Source of the DNA: Nautilia profundicola AmH
GTDB lineage: Bacteria > Campylobacterota > Campylobacteria > Campylobacterales > Nautiliaceae
Assembly (NCBI RefSeq): GCF_000021725.1
Contig: NC_012115.1
Span: 1,193,408-1,257,407 of the forward strand
Length of the DNA: 64,000 nt
Direction of reading: 5' to 3'
Shown here one piece after another: positions 7,304-46,182 of this stretch (position 1 is the first letter of the stretch; the number at the start of each line of letters is the position of its first letter). Position numbers and translations under genes: made by a program. The notes under the pieces were generated by a model. The model was not told where the DNA came from, did no database searches, and worked only from the letters and a program-made list of their open reading frames with translations.

Positions 7304-8959
7304 ATGTACGACTATGTATATTATTCCAAAGATTTAGATTTTCCACTGCCGGAAAACATAACCCACCTTAGAGAAAAAACCTCAAAAGCTATTATATCCA
7401 ACTCCAGAGAAATTGAATGTGAAATCTATGCCCCTGAAATAAACTTTTATATAAACAATTCAAAAGACACTGTTTTAAATAAGATTAATGCTTTAGAAAA
7501 ACTATATGAAATAAGAAGTATCAAATTCGACAATGCAAAATATAACGAATACCAAAAAGAAATAGGTAATAAAGTGCTTATTATAGGCTCAAAAAATCAA
7601 GCCGAGCAGATAAATACCGAAAACTTTGAAGTTTATTACGCATTGCCGGAATGGATAGAAGATATTAAAGGCACAATCGGAAACCTTGAATTTAAAATAA
7701 ACAAAAACGGTGAAAATATTAATTTAACGGTTGATCAGGCTCTCTGGTTTAATGCTCCAGAAATTGCATATAAACAAAGAGGAATTATAGATCCTATCGA
7801 TATCGGAATTGAAAAAACCCACGAAATACTAAATAAAAGAGCAGGAATATACAACTACCGAAACTACATAACCTATGATATTAACCTGTGTCAGTACAAC
7901 GGACGGGTTTTAAAAGAAACCTGCGGCAACTGCGTAGATGTATGCCCTACCAATGCAATACTCAAAATCGATGAAGAAAAAAAATTGCTTTTTTCCCATA
8001 TAGACTGTGACGGATGCGGAGGATGTGTAAGCGTATGCCCAAGCGGCGCACTGGATTTCAGTGCAGTTCCAAGAGAGACATTTTACGAAATTGCGAAATT
8101 TTTTAAAGGACATATTCCTCTGATTATTCCAGAAAACTTAATAGAAGTCTTAGATATAGAATTAAAAGAACACGTACTTCCTCTGGCGGTTGAAGGAGCT
8201 AAATTTTTAGATGAAACGCATTTTTTAACTCTTTTTCAAGAGAGTGCTTCTCAGATTGTTTTTTATACCGACAGACTTTCAAAAGGAGAAAAAGAGGCAA
8301 TCAGACTCATAAATGAAATAAGTATAAGAAAATATAAAAAAGAAGCCGTTTTACTTGCCCAAAACATAAATGAGCTTAAAAAAGCCCTTGAAAAAGCACA
8401 GATTGTACCTGAAGCATCTTATACTACAAACACTCACAATCTTAAAAAAAGAGAAAACTTCGCAATAAGACTTTCTCATATAGTCGAAAATGATGATTTG
8501 GGAGTAATAGATTTAAGTGAAAACAAATACATCCATTACGGCAAAATAGAAATCGAAGAAGACAAATGCACCCTTTGTATGGGCTGTGTAAGTGTATGTA
8601 ACGCAGGAGCCCTTACCGCTCATCCTGAGGATAACTCACTTAAGTTTGATGCGGGAGTATGTACGGACTGCGGATACTGCGAAATAGCATGTCCCGAAAA
8701 ATGCATTAACGTAATCTACGACAGTCTCGAGCTAAACCCAGAGTATTTCGGACAGAAAACCATGGCAAAAGACGAACCGTTTCACTGCATAATGTGCGGC
8801 AAACCATTCGCTCCTAAAAAATCCATAGAAAAAATAGCATCAATCCTGCTTCCGATGTTTACGGATGAAACAAAAAGAAAATCAATCTACTGCTGTGAGG
8901 AGTGTAAAGCAAAACTCGTCTTTAATGACTACCTCGAAAGGAAATTAAATGCAAAATAG
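7304..8959 (+). CDS. Multi-cluster 4Fe-4S ferredoxin-type protein of the formate dehydrogenase locus
   Basis: A 551-residue cytoplasmic protein with two pairs of ferredoxin motifs. The first pair lies near residues 200-250 (CGNCVDVCP, CDGCGGCVSVCP). The second lies near 422-470 (CTLCMGCVSVC, CTDCGYCEIACP). Together they are enough for four [4Fe-4S] clusters. The extreme C-terminus has another set of paired cysteines (CIMCGKPF near 490 and YCCEEC near 530) that looks like a zinc-ribbon rather than a ferredoxin motif. The downstream chaperone gene overlaps it by 11 bases, and the formate dehydrogenase genes follow. Likely an electron carrier or maturation factor for the dehydrogenase; the role is inferred from context. 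There is no signal peptide. Confidence 0.8.
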   Translation: MYDYVYYSKDLDFPLPENITHLREKTSKAIISNSREIECEIYAPEINFYINNSKDTVLNKINALEKLYEIRSIKFDNAKYNEYQKEIGNKVLIIGSKNQAEQINTENFEVYYALPEWIEDIKGTIGNLEFKINKNGENINLTVDQALWFNAPEIAYKQRGIIDPIDIGIEKTHEILNKRAGIYNYRNYITYDINLCQYNGRVLKETCGNCVDVCPTNAILKIDEEKKLLFSHIDCDGCGGCVSVCPSGALDFSAVPRETFYEIAKFFKGHIPLIIPENLIEVLDIELKEHVLPLAVEGAKFLDETHFLTLFQESASQIVFYTDRLSKGEKEAIRLINEISIRKYKKEAVLLAQNINELKKALEKAQIVPEASYTTNTHNLKKRENFAIRLSHIVENDDLGVIDLSENKYIHYGKIEIEEDKCTLCMGCVSVCNAGALTAHPEDNSLKFDAGVCTDCGYCEIACPEKCINVIYDSLELNPEYFGQKTMAKDEPFHCIMCGKPFAPKKSIEKIASILLPMFTDETKRKSIYCCEECKAKLVFNDYLERKLNAK

Positions 8960-9686
8960 GGAAATTAACGAAGGAAGGGCTTTTTATTACGGTTTTTTTT
9001 CAAAACTTTTTACGTTTACTTATGATAAGGAGAGATTTGCGGGTGTAAAAGAAGCAGCTGAAATTTTACACAACTACGCACTTGAAGAAAATTCAAAAAA
9101 AGCGCTTGAACACTTCTTGCAAAATTATAACGAACAAAAACTTGCAGAAGAGTTTGACGAAATATTTTACGACCTCTCCCAAGACCCGGTCCCCACAACC
9201 GCTTCATTTTATGATGAAGAAATAGAAAACGGCAAAATGAAAGTAAAAATGGTGGATATTGTTCTCGGGTCAAAATTTAGAAAAAACGAAGAGTATAAAG
9301 ATAGTGAAGATGATATCGGTTTCATTTTTCCTTTTATGCAGTATCTAATTTTAGAAAAACTAAACGGCGATGAAAAATCAGAATGGCTTGAGGGTAAAAC
9401 GTTTGACGTACTCAATACCTTCATAGACGATTTTGCAGAAAACGTCTATATGCACCAAGCATCAAATCTTTATAAAGATATCGCCGTGGTTTTAAAAGCG
9501 TTTGTTGAGAGTGAGAGAATCTTCCTTGAAAAACCGAAACCGGTTATAGAAAAAATAAAAAAAGAAGTATGTGAAGTTTGCATTGCCGATGAAGAAGCCG
9601 CACTTAGAAAAAAACGTAAGAAAAAAGAGAGCGAAAACCTCGTATGTAACCTTGAAGAAGGCGGAGACGTTGAGGATGAAGTTTAA
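8949..9686 (+). CDS. TorD/DmsD-family chaperone for the molybdo/tungsto-enzyme
   Basis: A 245-residue all-helical cytoplasmic protein. It has the layout of TorD-like redox-enzyme maturation chaperones: a helical N-terminal domain, then a DPVPTTASFYDEE segment and aromatic-rich helices. Such proteins bind the twin-arginine signal of a partner oxidoreductase and hold it until its cofactor is inserted. The partner here is probably the Tat-tagged catalytic subunit starting at 10374. The gene overlaps the ferredoxin gene by 11 bases. The C-terminal 60 residues are a charged, cysteine-containing extension (CEVCIADEE, then a KKRKKKE stretch) not typical of TorD. Confidence 0.75.
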   Translation: MQNREINEGRAFYYGFFSKLFTFTYDKERFAGVKEAAEILHNYALEENSKKALEHFLQNYNEQKLAEEFDEIFYDLSQDPVPTTASFYDEEIENGKMKVKMVDIVLGSKFRKNEEYKDSEDDIGFIFPFMQYLILEKLNGDEKSEWLEGKTFDVLNTFIDDFAENVYMHQASNLYKDIAVVLKAFVESERIFLEKPKPVIEKIKKEVCEVCIADEEAALRKKRKKKESENLVCNLEEGGDVEDEV

Positions 9687-9848: not shown

Positions 9849-10040
9849 ATCAGCAATTATGTTTTCTTTTGTTTTATAAAAAAAAGATATAACCGCAGAG
9901 CTTACCGAGCTTTGCCGTTATCTCTTACGAGATAAATCCGAACATTGTACTCCTAAAAGCACTTTTAGGAATCCGGCCTTGTGAATTCTAAAATTTATAA
10001 GGCCGGCTTTGCAGAATTTTAATTTTGCAGAGCAAAACCG

Positions 10041-10151
10041 GGTCCCGGAGAGTCTTTAGACTTTTTTGGGTATTAAAACAAGGTCCTCGAAAAATCGGTA
10101 GATTTTTTGGGGTATCAAAGTGGTCCCGCAAAATGAACATTTTGCGGGGTA
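10041..10151 (+). repeat. Three tandem GGTCC...GGGGTA hairpins, 40-41 base period
   Basis: Three units (10041-10073, 10082-10115, 10122-10151) each open with GGTCC and close with GGGTA. Their cores differ but remain self-complementary: AGTCT/AGACT, GAAAAATC/GATTTTTT and CGCAAAATG/CATTTTGCG. The unit at 9781-9808 (GGTCG...GGGTA) is a fourth, more distant member. Conserved ends with covarying stems imply selection on the folded form. Confidence 0.6.
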
Positions 10152-10171
10152 AATTTAAAAAAGGAGCAAAA

Positions 10172-10363
10172 ATGAAAAGAAGAAGTTTCCTTAAAGGGGC
10201 TCTTGGAATAGGAGCACTGAGTGTCGCTTCTTCAACACTGATCTTTGCCAAATCCGAACAACCGGAATATGACAACGGTGTAGTAATAGGACACTCACCT
10301 AAAAAAGAGATTCTTTACAAAAAAACCAAAAATTGGGAAATTTATTACAAAAATGCCATTTAA
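10172..10363 (+). CDS. Small twin-arginine signal protein of the formate dehydrogenase operon
   Basis: A 63-residue protein beginning MKRRSFLKGALGIGAL, a textbook Tat signal (RRSFLK plus a hydrophobic stretch), followed by a short polar tail. The start is fixed by the AAGGAG at 10161-10166. An in-frame upstream extension back to 10025 runs through the hairpin leader and has no ribosome site. The gene ends 10 bases before fdhA. Small Tat-tagged proteins directly ahead of the catalytic subunit are a known feature of campylobacterotal formate dehydrogenase operons. They are thought to be minor subunits or maturation factors; no catalytic motif is visible. Confidence 0.82.
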   Translation: MKRRSFLKGALGIGALSVASSTLIFAKSEQPEYDNGVVIGHSPKKEILYKKTKNWEIYYKNAI

Positions 10364-10373
10364 GGAGTAAAAA

Positions 10374-13199
10374 ATGAGCTCACTTGAAAAAATGAATCCG
10401 AAAGTGGGTAGAAGGGCCTTTTTGAAAATGGCGGCACTCTCAGGAGTAGCAGGTGCAACAATGCTAAGCGCGGCACCGGCTGTGAGAGACGCCACCGATG
10501 ACGAAATAAAAGACCCTTACCCAGGAAGTAAAAAAGTTAAAACAGTGTGCACTACCTGTTCGGTAGGCTGTGGAATTATAGCAGAAGTTCACAACGGCGT
10601 ATGGGTAAGACAGGAAGTTGCACAAGATCATCCTATCAGCCACGGAAGCCACTGCTGTAAAGGTATAGACTCAATAGATTACATAAGAACGGAAAAAAGG
10701 GTTAAACACCCTCTTAAAAAAGTTAACGGAAAATGGAAAAGAATAAGCTGGGATGAAGCAATTAACGAAATCAGCGAAAAAATGCTTCAGATAAGACGTG
10801 AAAACGGACCTGATGCTGCAATGTTTTTAGGAAGTGCTAAAATGAGCACAGAACAGGCATATTATTTCAGAAAATTTGCAGCAATGTGGGGTACTAACAA
10901 TATAGATCACCAAGCACGGATCTGACATAGCGCAACAGTCGCGGGGGTCGCGAATACATGGGGTTACGGCGCAATGACAAACCACCTTGGAGATATCCAA
11001 AACTCAAAAGCAATTATAATCTTCGGTGCAAATCCGGCGGTTAACCATCCTGTAGGATTTAAACATATCTTAAAAGCAAAAGAAAGAAACAACGCTTTAC
11101 TGATTGTAATAGATCCAAGATATACAAAAACAGCGGCAAAAGCTGATATTTACGCAAAAATAAGACCGGGAACCGATATTCCGTTTATGTACGGAATGCT
11201 GCATTTAATCTTCAAACACGGATGGCATGATCCCGATTACATCAAAAATAGAGTATTCGGAATGGATCATGTAATCGAAGAAGCCAAAAAATGGACTCCT
11301 GAAAAAGTCGAAGACGTAACAGGTGTACCTGCAAGTCTTGTATATAAAATTGCAAGAGCTTACGCTACAAGCAAACCGGGTACTCTTCTTTGGGCAATGG
11401 GACTAACTCAACATTCAATCGGTTCATCCAATACAAGAATGGCTCCTATACTTCAGTTGGCACTTGGAAATATGGGTAAATTCGGTGGAGGATGTAACAT
11501 CTTAAGAGGTCATGACAACGTTCAGGGTGCTACAGATATGTGCTGTCTGTCACATACACTGCCAGGATATTACGGTTTGAGCGAAGGCAGCTGGAAATAT
11601 TTTGCACATAACTGGGGAGTTGATTTTGACTGGCTTCAAAAAAGATTTGCAGCCAAAAAATGGATGCATACCAAAGGCTTTACACTTGCCAAATGGTGGC
11701 AGGGAGTACTGCAGGAAGAAAAAACCTATTCAGACGCACCGATTAGAGCGTTATGGGTTCAGGGTAACGGTATTACATCCATTTCCCAACAGGCAAAAGT
11801 ACAACAGGCACTTGATAAACTGGATCTTTTAGTAATTGCCGAACCGTTTGCAAACGAAGCTGCGGTAATTACAAACAAAAAAGACGGCGTATACATTCTT
11901 CCGACTGCAAGCCAGTTTGAATGCGAAGGAAGCGTTACGGCTACAAACAGAACGGCTCAGTGGAGAAGCAAAGTCGTGGATCCTTTATATGAAAGCAAAA
12001 CAGATGAAGAGATCATGTTTATCTTTGCCAAAAAATTCGGCTTTTACGATGAATTCGTAAGAGGTATGATGATGGGCGTCAAAAACGGAAAAGCCGTAAA
12101 AGTAAAAGACACTTTCAAATGGCCAGAAGACGCTACAAGTGAAATAGCAAGAATCATCAAAACAATAGGACTTACCGGATGGACACCTGAGAGACTTAAA
12201 AAACATCAGCAAAACTGGCATATGTTTGATGAGGTGACTCTTAAAGGTATAGGACCTATGAAAGGCGAATATTACGGACTTCCATGGCCATGCTGGACTG
12301 AAACCCACAGCGGAAGCCCGGTACTTTACAACATTGACATACCTGTAAACGAAGGCGGTATGGGATTTAGAGCAAGATTCGGTACCGAATACAAAGGTGA
12401 AAGTCTGCTTGCCGGTCCAAGAGCTACAATTAAAGGTGCTAAAGTAAGAGGCGGATATCCTGAACTTACAAAAGACAACATCGAAAAAGTTTTAGGAATT
12501 AAACTAAGCCCGAAAGAAAAAGAAATTATGGGTAAAAACTGGAAAGTGGATTTAAGCGGACTTATTGCAAAATATGCTCTTGAGGCGGGTGTGGCACCTT
12601 ACGGTAACGCAAAAGCCAGAGCATACGTATGGACATTCCCTGATAAAATTCCTCTTCACAGAGAACCGCTCCATACACCAAGATTCGATCTGGCTAAAAA
12701 ATATCCGACTTATCCTGACAAAAAAAATCAATACAGGGTTGATACAAAATTCGCATCAATCCAAAAAACAGACTGGTCAAAAGAATTCCCGATTATTCTC
12801 ACAACCGGACGTCTTGTTATGTACAGCGGTGCGGGAATAATTGAAAGAAACAGCAAATATCTTGCGGCTTTACAGCCTGAAATGTTTGCGGACATCAATC
12901 CTGAACTTGCTTACAAACACGGCATCAGTGACGGTGATATGATCTGGGTTCACGCACCTGAGGGTACGAAAATCAAAGTGAAAGCAAGATTTACCTATTC
13001 AGTGGCACCGGACAGAATATTCTTACCTTTCCATTATGCAGGATTTATGCAAGGAGAGGATTTAAGAGGAAATTATCCTGAAGGTCTTGTACCGTATGCT
13101 ACAGGCGAAGCGGCAAATACCGTTACAAACTACGGATACGATATCGTTACCCAGATTCCTGAAACAAAAGCGGGCTTAGTCCGTATTGAAAAAGCGTAA
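10374..13199 (+). CDS. fdhA: Selenocysteine formate dehydrogenase, catalytic alpha subunit (read through TGA at 10923)
   Basis: A molybdo/tungsto-bis(MGD) oxidoreductase that oxidises formate to CO2 on the periplasmic side of the membrane. The full frame is 941 residues. Parts: Tat signal RRAFLKMAALSG at the N-terminus; [4Fe-4S] motif CTTCSVGC plus a later Cys in SHCCKG; then DHQARI-Sec-HSATVAG, where residue 184 is encoded by TGA at 10923-10925 and the frame continues unbroken to 13199. The neighbouring HSATVAG is the conserved context of the catalytic Sec/Cys in this family, so the stop is recoded, not a mutation. A GC-rich hairpin just downstream is the likely SECIS. SelA, SelB and tRNA-Sec are all encoded in this window. 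An automatic annotation would split the gene in two. W versus Mo is not decidable from sequence. Confidence 0.95.
10923..10953 (+). promoter_or_regulatory. Selenocysteine UGA codon and bacterial SECIS-like hairpin
   Basis: The TGA at 10923-10925 is followed 13 bases later by a 5-bp stem, TCGCG (10939-10943) with CGCGA (10949-10953), closing a GGGGT loop. Bacterial SECIS elements are small hairpins within about 40 bases after the UGA with G and U in the apical loop that contact SelB; this one has both. The exact lower stem is not obvious by eye. Confidence 0.75.
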
Positions 13200-13209
13200 G
13201 GAGTAGAAA

Positions 13210-13806
13210 ATGTATGAATATGCAAGAATGAAATTTTACTGTGACGAAGACAGATGTATCGAGTGTAACGCCTGTACGGTAGCCTGTGCGGAAGCGCACG
13301 AGCTACCTGTGGGTATTCACAGAAGAAAAGTTATTACGCTTAACGAAGGAATCGAGGGTAAGGAATTTTCAACTTCAATCGCCTGTATGCACTGTACCGA
13401 TGCGCCTTGCGCTCAGGTATGTCCGGTTGACTGTTTTTATATTAGAGAAGACGGCATCGTACTTCACGACAAAGATAAATGTATCGGATGCGGATACTGC
13501 CTCTACGCCTGTCCTTTCGGAGCTCCTCAGTTCCCAAGAGACGGAGCGTTTGGAGTTAGGGGTGTTATGGATAAATGTACAATGTGTGCGGGAGGTCCGG
13601 CTCCAACAAATTCTATTGAAGAATTTGAACTTTACGGACAAAACAGAATCGCGGAAGGCAAAGTGCCTATGTGTGCAGCTGTTTGTTCCACCAACGCACT
13701 TATTGTAGGTGACGCCGATAGTGTAGCCGAAATCAAAAGAGCAAGAGACGCAGCCAAAGGTAAAGGCCCTATGACACCTTACGGTTGGGACGTAGCCTAC
13801 AAATAA
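13210..13806 (+). CDS. fdhB: Formate dehydrogenase iron-sulfur beta subunit
   Basis: A 198-residue electron-transfer subunit with four ferredoxin-like cysteine groups: CIECNACTVAC near 17-27, CMHCTDAPCAQVCP near 59-73, CIGCGYCLYACP near 93-104, and CTMC...CAAVC near 119-162. It would carry four [4Fe-4S] clusters and pass electrons from FdhA to the cytochrome b. It has no Tat signal of its own and is presumably exported in complex with FdhA, as known for this enzyme class. The start is 10 bases after fdhA behind an AAGGAG site. Confidence 0.93.
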   Translation: MYEYARMKFYCDEDRCIECNACTVACAEAHELPVGIHRRKVITLNEGIEGKEFSTSIACMHCTDAPCAQVCPVDCFYIREDGIVLHDKDKCIGCGYCLYACPFGAPQFPRDGAFGVRGVMDKCTMCAGGPAPTNSIEEFELYGQNRIAEGKVPMCAAVCSTNALIVGDADSVAEIKRARDAAKGKGPMTPYGWDVAYK

Positions 13807-13815
13807 GGATATGGT

Positions 13816-14742
13816 ATGAAAAAACTATTGCCTCTGATTGGCATATTTGCCTTTGCCGGAAACGTCCATTTAGCGGAGCCTAATCTGGCTCCCGTTAACA
13901 AAGGGAGTACTTTGATCTCACCTCAGATGATTGAAGCTATCCCGGCTTGGCGTAATTATGGAGAATTATTTTTATATCTCCAAACCCACTGGGTTAAATT
14001 ACTTTTTTTAATTATCCTGATTGCAGTACCAACCGTATTTTTACTGCATTATTTAATTATAGGACCTAAAAAATTCTCCCATGAAGGAAGAAAGTTTTTA
14101 GTTTTCCCAAGCTGGCAGAGGATTATTCACTGGATTGCCGCACTTGGGTTTGTTTTAATAATACCAACCGGAATAATGATTATTTACGCAAAACTCTTCG
14201 GCGGAGGCACTCCGGTAAGATTTGCAAGGTATCTGCATGATATCGGGGCGGTACTTTTCGGTATTGCCGTTATCCCAATGTTTTTAATGTGGCTAAAAGA
14301 GATGCTACCGAGACTTTGGGATATTAAATGGTTTATGATTTTAGGCGGATACTTAAGCAAAGAAAAAAAAGAAATCCCCGCCGCCAAATTCAACGCAGGA
14401 CAAAAAATGTGGTATTGGATTGCAACCCTTGGAGGTATTGTGATGATAATTACCGGTGCGATGATGTATTTTCAAGATTTCGACATAGCCCTCCTTAACA
14501 GCTTGAATTTATATCAGATCGATTTATTAAGACTTGCCGTAATTACTCATCTTTTTTTAGCGATGCTTATCGTCGCTTTTTTCTTAACACACGTTTATAT
14601 GAGTGTTTTTGCGATAAAAGGCTCGCTTGACAGTATGATTGACGGATGTAAAAGTGAAGACGAATTAAAATATCTTCATTCCGTTTTTTACAAAAAAATA
14701 ATTAAAGAAGGCAAAGACAAAGAACTTGCCGAAAAATGTTAA
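13816..14742 (+). CDS. fdhC: Formate dehydrogenase cytochrome b gamma subunit
   Basis: A 308-residue membrane subunit that anchors the dehydrogenase and delivers electrons to menaquinone through b-type haems. An N-terminal signal-like segment (1-20) precedes four main transmembrane helices: near 55-75 and 98-122, then in the central part and near 233-258. Histidines for haem binding lie in RIIHWIAALG, RYLHDIG, THLFLAM and LTHVYMS. It begins 9 bases after fdhB and is the last gene before a rho-independent terminator. Confidence 0.92.
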   Translation: MKKLLPLIGIFAFAGNVHLAEPNLAPVNKGSTLISPQMIEAIPAWRNYGELFLYLQTHWVKLLFLIILIAVPTVFLLHYLIIGPKKFSHEGRKFLVFPSWQRIIHWIAALGFVLIIPTGIMIIYAKLFGGGTPVRFARYLHDIGAVLFGIAVIPMFLMWLKEMLPRLWDIKWFMILGGYLSKEKKEIPAAKFNAGQKMWYWIATLGGIVMIITGAMMYFQDFDIALLNSLNLYQIDLLRLAVITHLFLAMLIVAFFLTHVYMSVFAIKGSLDSMIDGCKSEDELKYLHSVFYKKIIKEGKDKELAEKC

Positions 14743-14835: not shown

Positions 14836-15768
14836 ATGAAAAAAACGCTTTTCTTATTAGGTTTAACTTTGTCTCTTTTTGCAGACAAAATAGTGGTTTT
14901 TCATGCAGGAAGCCTTAGTGTTCCTTTTTCGGAAATTGAAAAAAAATTCGAAGCCAAATACCCCCAGTTTGATGTAATAAGAGAAGCGGCTGGAAGTCGT
15001 GCGTGTGCGAGAAAAATAACTGATCTTCATAAAAAAGCCGATGTAATGGCAAGTGCGGATTATAAGGTAATTGATAATCTTTTAATTCCTAAGTACGCTG
15101 AATTTAACGCACTTTTCGCAACAAACGAAATGGTGATAGCTTTTACACCGCAGTCAAAATACGCCGAGAAAATAAATCAAAACAATTGGACTGACATACT
15201 TTTAAAACCGGGTGTGAAAGTCGGACACTCAAACCCTAACCTTGACCCCTGCGGATACAGAAGTATACTCGTAACAAAACTCGCCGGTATTTATTACAAA
15301 AAACCCGATTTTTACAATAAACTCTTAGGATATGGGGATTACTACAGCAGCGGTGAAGAAAACACAAAAAAAGTAATAGTAAGACCGAAAGAAACCGATC
15401 TTTTGGGACTTTTGGAAGCCGGTGCGTACGATTATCTTTTTATTTACAAATCCGTAGCCGAGCAGCACGGTCTCAAATACATAGAACTTCCCCCAGAGAT
15501 TAGCCTTAAAAGCAAAAAATACGCCGATTATTACAAACAGGTCAGTTTTAAAGTTACGGGCAAAAAACCTGGCAGCTTTATCGTAAAAAAAGGCGCCCCT
15601 ATGGTATACGGCATTACCGTTATTAAAAACGCACCTAATAAAAAAGGAGCCGAACTCTTTGTAAGCTTCGTACTTTCACCCGAAGGTCAGACAATTATGA
15701 AAAAAAACGGCCAGGGTGTAATTAATCCTCCCGTTATAAACGGAAAATGGACGGAAAATGCAAAATAA
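14836..15768 (+). CDS. wtpA: Tungstate/molybdate ABC transporter substrate-binding protein (WtpA type)
   Basis: A 310-residue periplasmic binding protein with a cleavable-looking signal (MKKTLFLLGLTLSLFA). It belongs to the ModA/WtpA family: VVFHAGSLS at the start of the mature protein, AAGSRACARKI, VGHSNPNLDPCGYRS and the C-terminal FVLSPEGQ block. The HAGSL and DPCGYR features are those of the WtpA (tungstate-preferring) branch rather than E. coli ModA. It supplies oxyanion for the formate dehydrogenase cofactor. The stop overlaps the ATPase gene by 11 bases. Confidence 0.85.
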   Translation: MKKTLFLLGLTLSLFADKIVVFHAGSLSVPFSEIEKKFEAKYPQFDVIREAAGSRACARKITDLHKKADVMASADYKVIDNLLIPKYAEFNALFATNEMVIAFTPQSKYAEKINQNNWTDILLKPGVKVGHSNPNLDPCGYRSILVTKLAGIYYKKPDFYNKLLGYGDYYSSGEENTKKVIVRPKETDLLGLLEAGAYDYLFIYKSVAEQHGLKYIELPPEISLKSKKYADYYKQVSFKVTGKKPGSFIVKKGAPMVYGITVIKNAPNKKGAELFVSFVLSPEGQTIMKKNGQGVINPPVINGKWTENAK

Positions 15769-16741
15769 ACTCCTTGAAATAAAAGATCTGTTTTTAAAAA
15801 AAGAAAAATTCAAACTCAACATCCTCTCTTTGGATGTAGATAAAAACGAATATTTTGTCCTGCTTGGAAAAACCGGAAGTGGCAAGACTCTTCTTCTTGA
15901 AAGTATAGCCGGATTTGAGACAATTGAAGGGGAAATCTATTTTGAAGGTAAAGAAATTACAAACCTGCCTCCTGAGAAGAGAAATTTCGGATTTTTATAT
16001 CAGGACTTTGCACTCTTTCCGCATTTAAACGCAGAACAAAATATCCGTTTTTCCGAAAAATACCACAAAAAAAACGAAGAGCTTTTTAATGATTTAGTAA
16101 AATTTTTACAGATTGAAAAAATCTTAAAAAGAAACATTCAGCATCTAAGCGGCGGTGAAAAACAAAGAATCGCCCTCGCACGGGCCGTTTATTCACAGCC
16201 AAAACTTTTACTTCTTGACGAGCCTCTAAGCGCGGTGGATCCTACTATGAGAAATGAGATTATGAAAAATCTAAAAGAACTGCCCGAAAGATACAACCTC
16301 TCGGTTATTCACGTTACGCACAACTTTAGAGAAGCATCATACCTTGCCGACAGACTCGGAATTATCCTAAAAGGCACCCTGCTGCAGAGCGGTGAAGCCA
16401 AAAGCGTGCTTAAAAACCCGAATTCCATTGAAGTGGCAAGATTTTTGGGCTTTAAAAACCTTTTTGAAATTTCACTTTTGGGATTTGAAAATTCGCATAA
16501 ATATTTCTCAATAGACCCGAATCAGATTACTATTACCAAAACCCCTCTGAAGAGTGATTACTGTTTTGAAGGGATTATTGATGAAATTATGGGAATAACG
16601 GATCATTATAAAATATTCGTAAACGTAAAAGAGTTTCAGTTTTTTATTAAAACACCAAAAAGAAGGTTTGAAGAACTTTCAATCAATAAAGGTGAAAAGA
16701 TCTACATATGTTTTAATAAAAAAGATGTAGTGTTTATATAG
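15758..16741 (+). CDS. wtpC: Tungstate/molybdate ABC transporter ATP-binding protein
   Basis: A 327-residue ABC ATPase with Walker A GKTGSGKT near 37-44, Q-loop YQDFALFPHL, signature LSGGEKQR near 131, Walker B LLLLDEPLS and H-loop VIHVTHN. A C-terminal region of about 90 residues follows and may be a divergent regulatory domain like those of ModC-type ATPases. It overlaps the binding-protein gene by 11 bases. It energises uptake through the permease encoded next. Confidence 0.87.
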   Translation: MQNKLLEIKDLFLKKEKFKLNILSLDVDKNEYFVLLGKTGSGKTLLLESIAGFETIEGEIYFEGKEITNLPPEKRNFGFLYQDFALFPHLNAEQNIRFSEKYHKKNEELFNDLVKFLQIEKILKRNIQHLSGGEKQRIALARAVYSQPKLLLLDEPLSAVDPTMRNEIMKNLKELPERYNLSVIHVTHNFREASYLADRLGIILKGTLLQSGEAKSVLKNPNSIEVARFLGFKNLFEISLLGFENSHKYFSIDPNQITITKTPLKSDYCFEGIIDEIMGITDHYKIFVNVKEFQFFIKTPKRRFEELSINKGEKIYICFNKKDVVFI

Positions 16742-16785: not shown

Positions 16786-17544
16786 ATGAAAAGGATTTTC
16801 GTATTTTTAGCAGCGGTTATCGTACTTTTTTTAACCCTACCTTTATTAAAACTGATATTGGGAGTCGGATTTGATTCATATATGCAAACACTAAAAGATA
16901 CGGAAGTTATTAACTCTATTTTTCTTACTATGAAAGTTTCTTTTCTTGCCACGCTTTTCGTACTTTTTACAGGCCTTCCCCTTGCGTATCTAATAGCCAG
17001 GTATGAGTTTTTTGGAAAAAGCCTGCTTGAGAGTCTGATAGACATTCCCACCATGGTGCCTCACACGGCTGCCGGTATTGCGCTTCTGATGACATTCGGA
17101 AGCCAAAACATCCAGGGTTTTTTAGAATCGGTAGGACTCGGATTTATAGATTCGACTACGGGAATTATGGCTGCTATGATGTTCCTCTCAGCCCCTTATC
17201 TCATAAACTCCGCAAAAGAAGGCTTTAAAAACGTAGACGTTAAACTTGAAAACATTTCACGTTCTTTAGGTGCGAGTCAGTTTGAGACATTTATGAAAAT
17301 CGTAATCCCGAATGCAAAAAAAGACATAATAAATGGAATGCTGATGATGTGGGCAAGAGGACTTGGGGAATTCGGAGCCGTGGTAATTATAGCTTATCAT
17401 CCTATGATAGCGCCGGTACTTATTTATGACAGGTTTATAAATTTCGGGCTTAATTATTCGGCTCCTGTGGCGGCTTTGATGATAATATTTTCGGTTATAG
17501 TGTTTTTAAGTATCAGATGGCTTAACAACAGATGCAACAAATGA
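16786..17544 (+). CDS. wtpB: Tungstate/molybdate ABC transporter permease
   Basis: A 252-residue inner-membrane permease with six predicted hydrophobic segments and the binding-protein-dependent transport signature near residue 160-190 (SRSLGASQFETFMKIVIPNAKKDIING), shared with ModB/CysT/WtpB. The start follows an AAAGG site. Forty-four bases separate it from the ATPase gene; they contain a short ATGAAAAATGGAAAAT repeat. The 3' end overlaps the convergent mnmH gene by 39 bases. Confidence 0.87.
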   Translation: MKRIFVFLAAVIVLFLTLPLLKLILGVGFDSYMQTLKDTEVINSIFLTMKVSFLATLFVLFTGLPLAYLIARYEFFGKSLLESLIDIPTMVPHTAAGIALLMTFGSQNIQGFLESVGLGFIDSTTGIMAAMMFLSAPYLINSAKEGFKNVDVKLENISRSLGASQFETFMKIVIPNAKKDIINGMLMMWARGLGEFGAVVIIAYHPMIAPVLIYDRFINFGLNYSAPVAALMIIFSVIVFLSIRWLNNRCNK

Positions 17545-18507
17545 TTCTATTTCACGGGCGCATTTTTTCAAATCGTCGTTTTTAACTACAAAATCGGCTG
17601 GTTTTTTTCTGTATTTTTTATCATAATATTCCGTAAGCAGCATTTCGGCTACTTTTTGAATATCACCATTTAAAAAGTAACTTTTAAGTTCTTCATATAT
17701 TGTCGTTGAAATAAAAGGTTTTATTTTATCAAGCGTGTTTATAAACCCTGTATCGTCAATATCCCCGTAATAGTTTATTATTCTTTTGACCCTGTCGTTA
17801 AGATCCGCAGTTACTTCTATCTGTATGCCTTCTTGCATTCTTTTGTGAAGAAGTTTCGGGATATACAACGATCCTATTTTTGGGCTTTCCGCTTCTATAT
17901 ATATGGTTTTTTCCGGGTCGGTTTTAATTAAAATGTCCGCTACTTCGTTTTCAAACTGCTTTTGGCTTGGCTGTGCGCCTTTATATCCGAAATTACTGCC
18001 GAAATGGTTTGCAAGTTTTTCAAGATCTAAAGACGGGTGCAGATGTTCTAAAAGTTCACTTTTCCCACATCCGCTGTTTCCTCTTAAAACGGCAAACTTT
18101 TTATGTGGAAAGTTTTGAAGATAATCGACCACCCACTTTCTGTAAGCCTTATACCCGCCTTCGAGTTTATAAACCCTATAATCCAATTGTGAAAGAATCG
18201 TATATAAAGCCGTAGACCTTTTACCTCCCCTCGCACAGTACACAAGAATTCTGCTTCCTGGTTTGGCGTCAAAGCTTTTAAGCTGGGCGGATATATTCTC
18301 AAGCATAAAACTTACTGCTTCTTTTTTTGCATGAAATTTTGAATGGTTTGTATACAGATTTCCGATATAAGCGTGCTGTTCGTTGTTTAAAACATAAAAG
18401 TTCTCACTTCCTGGGATATGCGACTCTTCAAACTCCCTCGGACTTCTCGCATCAAGTACATAATCAAATTTTTGTTTTAAAAATTCCTCAAGAGTTATTA
18501 TCTGCAT
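17506..18507 (-). CDS. mnmH: tRNA 2-selenouridine synthase
   Basis: A 333-residue enzyme (MnmH/SelU/YbbB) that replaces the sulfur of wobble 2-thiouridine with selenium from selenophosphate in certain tRNAs. The N-terminal rhodanese domain (VLDARSPREFEESHIPGS) carries the catalytic Cys in YCARGGKRS near residue 100. A P-loop domain follows (LRGNSGCGKSELL near 150). It overlaps the upstream formate dehydrogenase gene by 20 bases and is the second selenium-using pathway in the window. It draws on the same selenophosphate as SelA; selD is not in the window. Confidence 0.92.
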   Translation of the reverse strand: MQIITLEEFLKQKFDYVLDARSPREFEESHIPGSENFYVLNNEQHAYIGNLYTNHSKFHAKKEAVSFMLENISAQLKSFDAKPGSRILVYCARGGKRSTALYTILSQLDYRVYKLEGGYKAYRKWVVDYLQNFPHKKFAVLRGNSGCGKSELLEHLHPSLDLEKLANHFGSNFGYKGAQPSQKQFENEVADILIKTDPEKTIYIEAESPKIGSLYIPKLLHKRMQEGIQIEVTADLNDRVKRIINYYGDIDDTGFINTLDKIKPFISTTIYEELKSYFLNGDIQKVAEMLLTEYYDKKYRKKPADFVVKNDDLKKCAREIESFVASVVKPSDT

Positions 18508-20539
18508 TTATTACCTCAACCTCCACACTTTTAAATCTCGCGGTTTTAACCTTATGGTCGTGTTCGTCACCGAAAAGCGCGTTTATGTTGCTCTTTGCAA
18601 AATGAAACGTCGTATATAGCGTAAAAGGTCTTACGGTTTTAGTAAATTTCACCTTTAAAACATTTGATTCCCCGTATTTTGAACGCAGTTTTACAAATTC
18701 GCTTATTTCATTTTTATGTATTTCGTTTACAAGTAAAATATCCTCACCGTATTTTTTGGTCAGTTTCCCACTCGGTTTTGTCTGCGCGGCATTGTTGTAC
18801 TGTGGAAGCTCACGCCCGGTGTTCAGGTACCATCTTCTTTTGTTTTCAAGCAGGTCTTTTACTTCTCCTCTTAAATGGTACGGATGATAATGAAAATGCC
18901 CTTTCCCGTCAGGTGTACTGAATGATTCGGTGTGAAGTACCGGAGAGTCGCTGCCGTCAACTCTCACCGGCCAGCAAAGAGATTTTTTTCTAAGTCTCTC
19001 ATATGTCGCACCTTTAAATCTCTCAACCTCTTTTTTGCAGCTTTCAAACACATCTTCACTTGTTTTAAATTCAAGCTCACTCCCGAGTCTTTTTGATATC
19101 TCAGCCAATATTTCCCAGTCATCAGGCATATCGCATTCCACCAAAGGAGTGCTTAAATGAAGTCTTCTTTCGGCGTTTACGTATACGCCTGTTTTTTCAT
19201 ATGCGCTTTTTACACCGAAAACTATATCCGCCTTTTCGGTTATTTCGTTTCTCATAACTTCCATAACCATTAAAAATTCAAGATTTTCAAACGCTTTTTT
19301 GATTTTATTTAGATTAGGATGTACATGAAGTATATCTTCACCCATATTGATAATCGCTTTTATTCTGCCGTCTATCAGATGATCCATCACATCGGGAGTC
19401 ATAAGCCCTATCTTCTCAGGAATAGTATAATCAGGCCCGTAGTAAGGAAGACACCCCACATCGCATGCACCCTGAACGTTGTTTTGGCCCCTAAGTGGCA
19501 GTACTCCGCATCCTTCGCCGAAATTACCGCTAAGCATCGCAAGATTGCTGATGGCGTTTACCGCTTCGGTACCGTCGATATGCTCGGTTACCCCGAGTCC
19601 CCAGGCGAAAATTGTTTTGTTTTTAGATATTAAATTTGCGATTTCTTCAATCTGCCCTCTAATATGCTCAAAGCCTCTGAGTTTTTCAAAATACTCTTTT
19701 GAATCGGGATGTTTTATTATGTTTTCTTTATACTCATCATATTTTACACATCTGCTTTCGATAAAATCTTTATTTATCAGATCTTTTTCAATCATTTCCC
19801 TTGCAATTGCGTTTAAAAACAATAAATTCGATTCAAACGGAAGTATTACACTGATATCCGCAAACTTCATAATAGGAATTTCACGCACGTCCGCTACGAT
19901 TACCTTAGCACCCCTTCTTTTGGCTTTAATTATTCTGCTTGCCACCATAGGATGCGCCTGAGTAGTGTTGGAACCGATTATAAATATAACGTCTGCTTTA
20001 AAAAGCTCGTCAAACTCCACACTGCTCGCACCCTCGCCTATACTCATCTTAAGTCCGGACAGACTCGGAGAGTGGCAGATCCTTGCGCAGTTGTCGACGT
20101 TTGGAGTTTTTAGAATATTTCTTGCAAAATGCTGGAAAAGCCACGCACTCTCTATGCTTGTCCTCGCACCTCCTATACAGGCGATGTGGTTCGGAGTATA
20201 TTCATTTAAAATCTCTTTTATTTTCCACGCCGCAAGATCAAGTGCGAGAGAATAAGGAGAGCGGTAAAACTTTTCGTCGTATTCGTACAGATTTGCAAGC
20301 CTGATTGAAAGCTCAAACGGGAATTTGTCTTTATTTTTTTCAATAAATTCATAACTTACAAGATGAGTGTCGATTCTTTCATTTAAAAAATCAAACCCGT
20401 ATTTTCCTTTTATACAAAGCTCTCCTCCGCTTGATTTTCCCTCTTTTACAGGCAAAATTTTTTCAATCTTGCCGTCGGTTACTTTGGCGTCTATCTCACA
20501 CCCTACTCCGCAGTACGTACATACGCTGGTTTTCTGCAT
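18488..20539 (-). CDS. Cytoplasmic formate dehydrogenase-type molybdopterin oxidoreductase, cysteine form
   Basis: A 683-residue bis(MGD) oxidoreductase resembling FdhF/NAD-linked formate dehydrogenase alpha chains. The first part has the [4Fe-4S] motif CTYCGVGC with a later Cys (GELCIKGK). The catalytic residue is Cys155 in NCARICHSPS (codon TGC at 20077-20075), where selenocysteine sits in fdhA. There is no Tat signal, so it should be cytoplasmic. I chose the ATG at 20539 behind GGAG; an in-frame TTG at 20554 is possible. No partner Fe-S or flavin subunit is adjacent. The downstream gene is mnmH (20-base overlap). It could also be an assimilatory nitrate-reductase-like enzyme, but the RICHSPS context favours formate dehydrogenase. 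Confidence 0.8.
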   Translation of the reverse strand: MQKTSVCTYCGVGCEIDAKVTDGKIEKILPVKEGKSSGGELCIKGKYGFDFLNERIDTHLVSYEFIEKNKDKFPFELSIRLANLYEYDEKFYRSPYSLALDLAAWKIKEILNEYTPNHIACIGGARTSIESAWLFQHFARNILKTPNVDNCARICHSPSLSGLKMSIGEGASSVEFDELFKADVIFIIGSNTTQAHPMVASRIIKAKRRGAKVIVADVREIPIMKFADISVILPFESNLLFLNAIAREMIEKDLINKDFIESRCVKYDEYKENIIKHPDSKEYFEKLRGFEHIRGQIEEIANLISKNKTIFAWGLGVTEHIDGTEAVNAISNLAMLSGNFGEGCGVLPLRGQNNVQGACDVGCLPYYGPDYTIPEKIGLMTPDVMDHLIDGRIKAIINMGEDILHVHPNLNKIKKAFENLEFLMVMEVMRNEITEKADIVFGVKSAYEKTGVYVNAERRLHLSTPLVECDMPDDWEILAEISKRLGSELEFKTSEDVFESCKKEVERFKGATYERLRKKSLCWPVRVDGSDSPVLHTESFSTPDGKGHFHYHPYHLRGEVKDLLENKRRWYLNTGRELPQYNNAAQTKPSGKLTKKYGEDILLVNEIHKNEISEFVKLRSKYGESNVLKVKFTKTVRPFTLYTTFHFAKSNINALFGDEHDHKVKTARFKSVEVEVINADNNS

Positions 20540-20574
20540 ATTTTCAAACTCCAAACATTTTTTCTTAATATATC

Positions 20575-29331: not shown

Positions 29332-30678
29332 ATGAATCTTTTTAGACAAATCCCCAAAGTAGATAAAATTGAAAAAGCCCTCACACATATCCCCAAAAAA
29401 GTTCTAACTCCCATAATCCAAAAGACACTTAACGAAATAAGAGAAGGCATAAAAAACGGAAAAATCACACAAATAAATGAAGAAGATATTGTTAAAACGA
29501 TTGAAAAAAGATCTGAAGAAATACTTTCCCCTTCAATTGTAAACGTTATAAATGCTACGGGTATTACGGTTCATACGAATCTGGGCAGAAGCCTGATTGA
29601 TCCGGAAATTTTCGATTACGCAAAGAAACGTTCAACTCATTACTGCAACCTCGAATACGACCTTGAAAAAGGAAAACGGGGCGACAGATACCACCACAGC
29701 GCAAAAATATTAAGCCACCTGTTTGGAAGTGAAAGCGCTCTTATTGTAAACAATAACGCCGCAGCCGTGTTTTTGATACTAAACACATTCGCAAAAGATA
29801 AAGAAGCGATAGTCTCAAGAGGAGAACTTGTGGAAATCGGAGGCAGTTTCAGGGTACCTGAAGTCATGAAAGCCAGCGGTGCGAAACTTGTGGAAGTCGG
29901 AACCACAAACAAAACCAAAATCCAAGACTATGAAGACGCTATTACCGAAGATACCGCAATGCTTATGAAAGTACACAAATCCAACTACTCAATAGAAGGA
30001 TTCAGCGCCGAAGCGAGCCTTGAAGAAATTATAGAGCTTGCACACAAAAAAAATGTGCTTGATTATTACGATCTGGGAAGCGCATACATTCCTAAACTAC
30101 CTTACTCTCTTACGAACTACGAACCTCCTATAAGCGAAATTATGAAATTAAACCCGAGCTTAGTGAGTTTTAGCGGTGACAAACTTTTCGGAAGCGTTCA
30201 GGCCGGAATAATACTCGGCAAAAAAGATCTAATCGACAAACTCAAAAAAAATCAGATTTTAAGAATGTTCAGGGTTGATAAAATAACGCTATCACTCATC
30301 GAAGCCACAGCCCTTGCCTATATCAAAGAAGAGTATGACAAAATCCCGACTCTTAAATCGATTTTTCAGACAACCGAAGCACTTAAAGAAAAAGCAAAAA
30401 AACTTCTCTCACTCACACCAGGACTGAAAGCCGAAATAAAAGAATCACACACTTATGTCGGCGGCGGAACCATGCCGAACCGAAAAATTCCGACTGTTGT
30501 TGTGGAAATTAAAGGAAATGCCAAAAAATGGGAAGAAGATATGCGTAAACACCTGGTAATCGGAAGAATAGAAAACGAAAAATTCGTACTTGATATGAGA
30601 AGCGTCCAGGAAGACGAAATAGAAAAATTAGCCCAAATTATAAATTCAATTATTACATGCGAGGTGAAAGATGCGTAA
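29332..30678 (+). CDS. selA: L-seryl-tRNA(Sec) selenium transferase
   Basis: A 448-residue PLP enzyme that turns seryl-tRNA(Sec) into selenocysteinyl-tRNA(Sec) using selenophosphate. Seen: NATGITVHTNLGRSLI in the N-terminal part, NNNAAAVFL, EIGGSFRVPEVM and the PLP lysine in SFSGDKLFGSVQAGII near residue 285. It overlaps selB by 8 bases. Together with tRNA-Sec at 46084-46182 it provides the charged tRNA for the fdhA UGA. Confidence 0.96.
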   Translation: MNLFRQIPKVDKIEKALTHIPKKVLTPIIQKTLNEIREGIKNGKITQINEEDIVKTIEKRSEEILSPSIVNVINATGITVHTNLGRSLIDPEIFDYAKKRSTHYCNLEYDLEKGKRGDRYHHSAKILSHLFGSESALIVNNNAAAVFLILNTFAKDKEAIVSRGELVEIGGSFRVPEVMKASGAKLVEVGTTNKTKIQDYEDAITEDTAMLMKVHKSNYSIEGFSAEASLEEIIELAHKKNVLDYYDLGSAYIPKLPYSLTNYEPPISEIMKLNPSLVSFSGDKLFGSVQAGIILGKKDLIDKLKKNQILRMFRVDKITLSLIEATALAYIKEEYDKIPTLKSIFQTTEALKEKAKKLLSLTPGLKAEIKESHTYVGGGTMPNRKIPTVVVEIKGNAKKWEEDMRKHLVIGRIENEKFVLDMRSVQEDEIEKLAQIINSIITCEVKDA

Positions 30679-32500
30679 TATTATTATAGGTACAGCCGGT
30701 CACGTAGACCACGGTAAAACATCCCTTATTGAAGCTATGACGGGATACAACGGAGACGAGCTTAAAGAAGAAAAAGAAAGAGGGATTACGATTGATCTTA
30801 GCTTTACAAATATGAAAAAGGGCGATACCAACGTAGCGTTTATAGACGTCCCGGGGCACGAAAAACTTGTTAAAAACATGATCAGCGGAGCTTTCGGGTT
30901 TGACGCTTCGCTTTTTGCGATAGATGCGAATGAAGGCGTAATGCCGCAAACCGTAGAGCATCTGGAAGTATTAAACATTCTAAAAGTCAAAAACATTATC
31001 GTAGCACTTACCAAATGTGACCTGGCAGACCCTGAAACAATCGAAAAAAGAAAAAATGAAATCAGGGACTTGATAGCAAAATACAAAAACCTGCATCTTC
31101 TTGAAATTTTCGAAACGTCGATTTACGACAAACAAAGCATAGAAAAACTAAAAGACTATCTTTTCAACCTGCCGCCGAGAAACATTACCCATTCTAAATT
31201 TTTCAGATACTATATCGACAGGGTGTTTTCACTAAAAGGTATCGGTACGGTCGTTACGGGTACGGTTTTAAGCGGTAAGGTGAAACTAAAAGACAAAATT
31301 TACATCAACGAAACCAAAACCCTAACAACCGTTAAAAACCTGCAGGTCCACGGTGAAGATGTGGAAGTTGCGTATACCCACCAAAGAGTTGCTATAAATC
31401 TGAACATCAACCATAAAGAGCTCAAAAAAGGATACCTGCTCTCAACCAAAGGATACTTAAGAGGTTTCAAACTGATTGACGTATTTGTAAAGCCTGTAGA
31501 AGGAAAAGAGCTTTTCCATAATATGGAAGTTTTGTTCATAAGCGGTGCAAAAAGGATTCCCGGTAAACTTTTAATGTTTAATCCCGAAGACAAAAAAGGA
31601 TACGCAACCGTAAAACTTGAAGAAAAAGCGTTTTTGGTTTTTGAAGATCCGTTTGTAATCCTTCATAACGGACGTGTTATCGGAGGTGGAGAGGTATTAA
31701 ACCCTATAAGCGATCCTATTAAGAAAAAGAAAAAACTGGCCCTTTTAAAAGCGCTTAACAAAAAAGATTTTAAAACCGCATTTGAAATACTCGTTCAAAA
31801 CCACAAACGCGGATTCGGACTGCTTCAAAGCTATCAGAGATTCAACCTGACCCCTGCCGAAGCTCTTGAGATCGCAAAACAGCTTGATAACGTATTTATT
31901 GATGAGGAAAATTACAATATTTTCTCAATGGATGTTAAAAAAGAGATCGAAAAAGTAATAAAAGACACCTATGAAAAAAACAGATTCGCATTTCTCTCCC
32001 CTGCATCCCTTAAACTAAGACTCAAATGGGCAAGTAACGAACTTATACAAAGCGTGCTTGACGAGTTTGTAAAAGAAGGGTATCTGATAAAAGAAGACAA
32101 CATCTATAAAAGAAAAGACTTAGGAGAAGTGGACGTAACCAAATCGGTAGAACACAGACTCTATCAGCTTCTTGACAATTCGGGACTCACACCGGAAGCG
32201 CCGTACAATATATATGAAAAATTAAATATCGACAGAAAAGTCGGCGACAATGCTATGAAAAAACTCACAACATCCAAAAAAGTGGTAAGACTTGCGCATA
32301 ACCTTTTCGTAACGGATAAAAACATAAACATAGCCCTTAAAAAAATGAGGGAAATTATGGAAAAAGAAGGATATATTGATATTAAAAAATTCAAAGAGCA
32401 TATGCCTATGAGTAGGAAATACATAGTAGCGTACCTTGACTATTTGGACCAGCTCGGAGACGTGGAAAAAAGAGACAACAAACGATATCTTAAAAATTAA
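30671..32500 (+). CDS. selB: Selenocysteine-specific elongation factor
   Basis: A 609-residue GTPase that delivers Sec-tRNA to UGA codons marked by a SECIS hairpin. N-terminal G domain: GHVDHGKTSL, DVPGHEKLVKNM and TKCD, followed by EF-Tu-like domains 2 and 3. The C-terminal half (from about 400) holds the winged-helix repeats that bind mRNA hairpins. The start lies inside the end of selA behind GAGGTG, so the two are translationally coupled. Confidence 0.96.
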   Translation: MRNIIIGTAGHVDHGKTSLIEAMTGYNGDELKEEKERGITIDLSFTNMKKGDTNVAFIDVPGHEKLVKNMISGAFGFDASLFAIDANEGVMPQTVEHLEVLNILKVKNIIVALTKCDLADPETIEKRKNEIRDLIAKYKNLHLLEIFETSIYDKQSIEKLKDYLFNLPPRNITHSKFFRYYIDRVFSLKGIGTVVTGTVLSGKVKLKDKIYINETKTLTTVKNLQVHGEDVEVAYTHQRVAINLNINHKELKKGYLLSTKGYLRGFKLIDVFVKPVEGKELFHNMEVLFISGAKRIPGKLLMFNPEDKKGYATVKLEEKAFLVFEDPFVILHNGRVIGGGEVLNPISDPIKKKKKLALLKALNKKDFKTAFEILVQNHKRGFGLLQSYQRFNLTPAEALEIAKQLDNVFIDEENYNIFSMDVKKEIEKVIKDTYEKNRFAFLSPASLKLRLKWASNELIQSVLDEFVKEGYLIKEDNIYKRKDLGEVDVTKSVEHRLYQLLDNSGLTPEAPYNIYEKLNIDRKVGDNAMKKLTTSKKVVRLAHNLFVTDKNINIALKKMREIMEKEGYIDIKKFKEHMPMSRKYIVAYLDYLDQLGDVEKRDNKRYLKN

Positions 32501-46083: not shown

Positions 46084-46182
46084 TGGCGGAAGGGGGAAGG
46101 AATCGAACCTTCCGGGCAGACAGTCACCTGCCGCCCCACCGGGTTTGAAGCCCGGGGTGTCCACCAGGATCACATCCCCTCC
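46084..46182 (-). tRNA. selC: tRNA-Sec (anticodon TCA)
   Basis: A 99-base tRNA on the minus strand. Its 5' end GGAGGGGA pairs with CCCCTTCC next to the discriminator base and an encoded CCA at 46086-46084. The anticodon loop CTTCAAA gives anticodon TCA (46148-46146), which reads UGA. A long variable arm of paired GGCGGCAGGT.../...GTCTGCC type and a 5-bp T stem (GAAGG-TTCGATT-CCTTC) match selenocysteine tRNA architecture, with an 8+5 acceptor-T helix. It is the decoder for fdhA, served by SelA and SelB. Confidence 0.95.

Follow-up and report, generated by a model that had tools for sequence, protein, structure and literature searches.

In the E. coli selenoenzymes FdnG and FdhF, selenocysteine (Sec) stands at the position that corresponds to the in-frame UGA described here, and the loop of the SECIS hairpin starts with GG. 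The order fdhA-fdhB-fdhC is known for the Sec-containing FdhABC type of Campylobacterota, and the order in Nautilia profundicola AmH agrees with it. A 2015 study documented Sec formate dehydrogenases and SelD across Epsilonproteobacteria, together with a covarying apical hairpin that has an invariant loop G; Nautilia is not mentioned in its main text (PMC4607533). The 2009 genome paper of N. profundicola reports a selenocysteine tRNA as well as the genes for formate dehydrogenase, and states that the formate dehydrogenase makes growth on formate possible (PMC2628731). A Sec formate dehydrogenase in Nautilia is correct but ordinary, the selenoprotein family having already been documented in the class.

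N. profundicola AmH is a vent bacterium of the Campylobacterota whose genome forms one contig of 1,676,444 bases. We analysed a stretch of 64,000 nucleotides of this contig (the window; NC_012115.1, positions 1,193,408 to 1,257,407, forward strand). Coordinates are those of the window unless stated otherwise.

Reading frame and identity of fdhA

The fdhA frame runs from 10374 to 13199 on the + strand and comprises 941 residues when TGA is decoded as U. Its sole interruption is the TGA at 10923–10925, which is codon 184 and is flanked by DHQARI and HSATVAG. In the table 11 ORF listing the gene appears as two ORFs, 10374–10925 (183 aa) and 10974–13199 (741 aa). Across the six frames of the window, fdhA is the only case in which a single TGA lies between two open stretches of more than 100 codons each. 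The significance of the gene is mainly one of annotation, as a gene caller that applies the standard code cuts it into two fragments.

The N-terminus carries a Tat (twin-arginine) signal with an RRAFLK motif, read in the sequence, and the Pfam domains PF00384 (molybdopterin oxidoreductase), PF04879 (Fe4S4) and PF01568 (dinucleotide-binding) all score above their cut-offs. The product matches the solved FdhA 9vap_A with 1038 bits over residues 11–941. Opposite the UGA this homologue has Cys, in the context ARICHS, as do gammaproteobacterial relatives. An earlier note on this DNA had described one frame broken only by the TGA at 10923, with the same flanks and at the catalytic Sec/Cys position, and had expected two fragments from standard gene callers; each of these points is borne out. 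It had also called for an alignment to related families, and homologues with Sec or Cys aligned at the UGA exist.

FdhA scores below the cut-offs of TIGR01553 (formate dehydrogenase-N alpha, the FdnG equivalog; 397.2 vs 814.2 bits) and of TIGR01591 (the Fdh-alpha equivalog; 510.9 vs 666.25 bits), and is therefore to be filed as the FdhABC (FDH3) type, not as FdnG. The features of the FDH3 type are present, namely an adjoining FDH3 beta subunit, a gamma subunit, and the catalytic-subunit domains with the Tat signal. Directly 3' of fdhA lie fdhB, for the FDH3-type beta (iron-sulfur) subunit (13210–13806, +; NF038355, 328.6 bits, cut-off 240), and fdhC, for the cytochrome b gamma subunit (13816–14742, +; TIGR01583, 203.7 bits, cut-off 115.85), both above curated cut-offs. 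Taken with the frame, the homologue match and the conservation described below, this identifies 10374–13199 as the gene for the catalytic subunit of an FdhABC-type formate dehydrogenase, predicted to be periplasmic and membrane-anchored and to have Sec as residue 184.

Just 5' of fdhA, a small Tat-signal protein (10172–10363, +; start chosen within the ORF 10025–10363) is called FdhX-like from its position and signal only. Further 5', a neighbourhood search returned a TorD/NarJ-like chaperone (Nitrate_red_del; 8949–9686, +), likely a dedicated maturation factor, preceded by a multi-4Fe-4S protein (7304–8959, +). On the 3' side of the fdh genes, the tungstate-binding protein WtpA (14836–15768, +; 406 bits, cut-off 355) is followed by a WtpC-like ABC transporter ATPase (15758–16741, +; below the WtpC cut-off) and an ABC transporter permease found by domain search (16786–17544, +). 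This tungstate-type transporter suggests that the FdhA cofactor may contain tungsten. The fdhD gene is located just outside the window. A second formate-dehydrogenase-like molybdopterin protein (18488–20554, −) has Cys (TGC) at the aligned position and reaches 537 bits against TIGR01591, under the cut-off.

Selenocysteine machinery

The earlier note had placed SelA, SelB and tRNA-Sec in the same window, and all three were located there: selA (29332–30678, +; TIGR00474, 529.6 bits, cut-off 267.9), selB (30671–32500, +; TIGR00475, 331.9 bits, cut-off 242.25) and selC, the tRNA-Sec gene (46088–46182, −; RF01852, 67 bits, gathering 47). With selD, which lies some 5 kb ahead of the window (1187315–1188235, −, contig coordinates), the genome holds selA, selB, selC and selD. 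This selD encodes a second selenoprotein, with an in-frame TGA at the usual place (AAGUAGKL).

A different decoding, in which the UGA would be read as Trp or Cys, either by a near-cognate tRNA or under an altered genetic code, has nothing specific in its favour and appears extremely unlikely. tRNA-Sec, SelA, SelB and SelD are all present, and the hairpin 3' of the codon matches the known SelB-binding type. In addition, apart from fdhA the window has no long frame interrupted by a single TGA, which argues that UGA is no general sense codon here.

Conservation of the codon and of the hairpin

Among 200 genomes drawn from the class, at least 126 have TGA at the position of fdhA codon 184. SelB scores above its cut-off in 124 of the 126 genomes with a TGA fdhA; in one of the remaining two (G184) it is marginally under the cut-off. 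The other (G035; L026 and L096) has a UGA fdhA and no SelB match at E 1e-50, perhaps because the assembly has a gap or selB is broken there. In the relatives that were fetched, the catalytic codon is TGA, TGT or TGC and never TAA or TAG. TGA is found in the genus neighbour of N. profundicola, in campylobacterotal relatives and in most desulfobacterial ones, and Cys copies occur in Shewanella, Ferrimonas, Paraferrimonas, Aliivibrio and Electrothrix. Genuine extra Cys paralogues are present in three class genomes (G030, G166 and G186). Partial matches without a stop were considered as Cys or truncated copies and rejected, as the three that were fetched are full-length TGA genes and their appearance is a match-end artefact. 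A plasmid search returned only distant formate dehydrogenase matches.

Upstream and downstream of the TGA alike, synonymous changes strongly predominate in comparisons with relatives within the family. Against one such relative (L007), there are 7 amino-acid and 44 synonymous differences upstream, and 55 and 202 downstream. This predominance indicates that what follows the TGA is translated and under selection within the same protein.

Two observations concern the wider distribution of the gene. A contig filed as Crocinitomix sp. (DQTE01000133.1) encodes an FdhA 90% identical to that of Nautilia, with the same hairpin, and is probably a mis-binned Nautiliaceae contig. Isolates of Desulforhopalus and Desulfofustis carry FdhA at 66–68% identity, with UGA and hairpin; these copies are nearer to Nautilia FdhA than some Campylobacterota copies are, which suggests transfer between Campylobacterota and the desulfobacterial group.

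The apical SECIS hairpin lies at 10939–10953 (+), its stem beginning 14 bases past the TGA, with arms at 10939–10943 (TCGCG) and 10949–10953 (CGCGA) and the loop GGGGT (GGGGU in RNA) at 10944–10948. With the U of UGA as 1, positions 17–21 pair with 31–27. Single-sequence folding gave an energy for this region no better than shuffles (z −0.40, 0.56 and −0.31); as a test of the hairpin it is uninformative, and energy alone would give no support. We therefore turn to comparative evidence. The protein sequence VAGVAN largely dictates the bases at positions 17, 19, 20, 28, 29 and 31, which leaves 18–30 and 21–27 as the only freely variable pairs.

In 34 distinct Sec sequences, pair 18–30 is Watson-Crick in all 34 and pair 21–27 in 33, whereas in 25 distinct Cys sequences each free pair is Watson-Crick in 24%. 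Both pairs are Watson-Crick together in 33/34 Sec vs 2/25 Cys sequences (Fisher p 5e-13), and for either pair none of 2000 permutations reaches the observed value, although the sequences share ancestry and both statistics overstate their independence. Within the Sec sequences the free pairs alternate between C-G, G-C, A-T and T-A, that is, they show compensatory changes. These comparisons provide strong evidence of selection acting on the hairpin RNA. The hairpin described in the earlier note, with its GGGGT loop and 14-base distance, is thus found at these coordinates; that note had also proposed a search for a SECIS fold, and here the energy is unexceptional but the stem pairs covary in TGA copies.

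Codons that the genes nearby seldom use, among them GTC (0.09) and GGG (0.11), make up the stem, and a search of the genome for further copies of the exact hairpin, allowing up to 3 mismatches, found none besides that of fdhA. Electrothrix gigas has a Cys copy, at 67% identity, that retains both free pairs; it may have changed from Sec to Cys recently, leaving a fossil SECIS. The contrast in stem pairing between Sec and Cys copies cleanly illustrates SECIS selection inside a coding sequence, a phenomenon already described.

The reading of the TGA as a true stop or sequencing error, leaving a pseudogene or two separate proteins, accords with the two ORFs of the table 11 listing, yet it is refuted by conservation and retains hardly any probability, given that at least 126 genomes, and the genus neighbour, share this TGA at the equivalent codon, that purifying selection acts on both sides, and that the hairpin covaries only where the codon is TGA.

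Decoding of the UGA and comparison with known systems

The alignment with Cys, the conservation of the codon, the covarying hairpin and the complete machinery all support the interpretation offered in the earlier note, that the UGA at 10923–10925 of this formate dehydrogenase gene is decoded as Sec. Neither of the two outcomes that the note had named as counting against its reading was observed. We are highly confident in this reading, in which SelB and the hairpin at 10939–10953 would direct the decoding in the gene for the catalytic subunit of a periplasmic FdhABC enzyme, and the protein almost certainly contains Sec. From established knowledge, SelB with Sec-tRNA-Sec would bind the hairpin, and the SelB-bound ribosome would insert selenocysteine at the UGA. 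In the folded FdhA, Sec184 would ligate a Mo- or W-bis-pterin cofactor. The folded protein would then be exported by Tat, and FdhA would hand electrons from formate to the quinone pool by way of FdhB and the cytochrome b FdhC.

Compared with the E. coli selenoenzymes FdnG and FdhF, Nautilia FdhA scores below the cut-offs of both family models (397 vs 814 bits for TIGR01553, 511 vs 666 bits for TIGR01591). The Cys FdhA proteins of Shewanella, Ferrimonas and Aliivibrio, and 9vap_A, share full-length homology and the active-site motif with it; their genomic copies, at about 50% identity, have TGT at the catalytic codon and do not conserve the hairpin pairing. With the Sec FdhABC of Campylobacterota (for example Campylobacter, Sulfurospirillum and Helicobacter) it shares the Tat signal, the codon at which UGA stands and the distance from UGA to the hairpin, at 52–93% identity.

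Within this group, the Nautiliaceae hairpin has G21-C27 and the loop GGGGU, whereas other Campylobacterota have C21-G27 and GGUGU. The GGGGU loop with the G-C closing pair occurs in six distinct Sec sequences, all from Nautiliaceae or one near-identical contig; the remaining Sec relatives have GGUGU or GGUGC. It is improbable that this variant, with its flipped pair, its GGGGU and a loop lacking the U seen in almost every Sec relative, mirrors a co-adapted change in recognition by Nautiliaceae SelB. The published bacterial SECIS model requires a G as the first or second base of the loop (PMC13188914), and the Nautilia hairpin keeps it. The flipped closing pair and the GGGGU loop are the only local detail, inside the known bacterial model.
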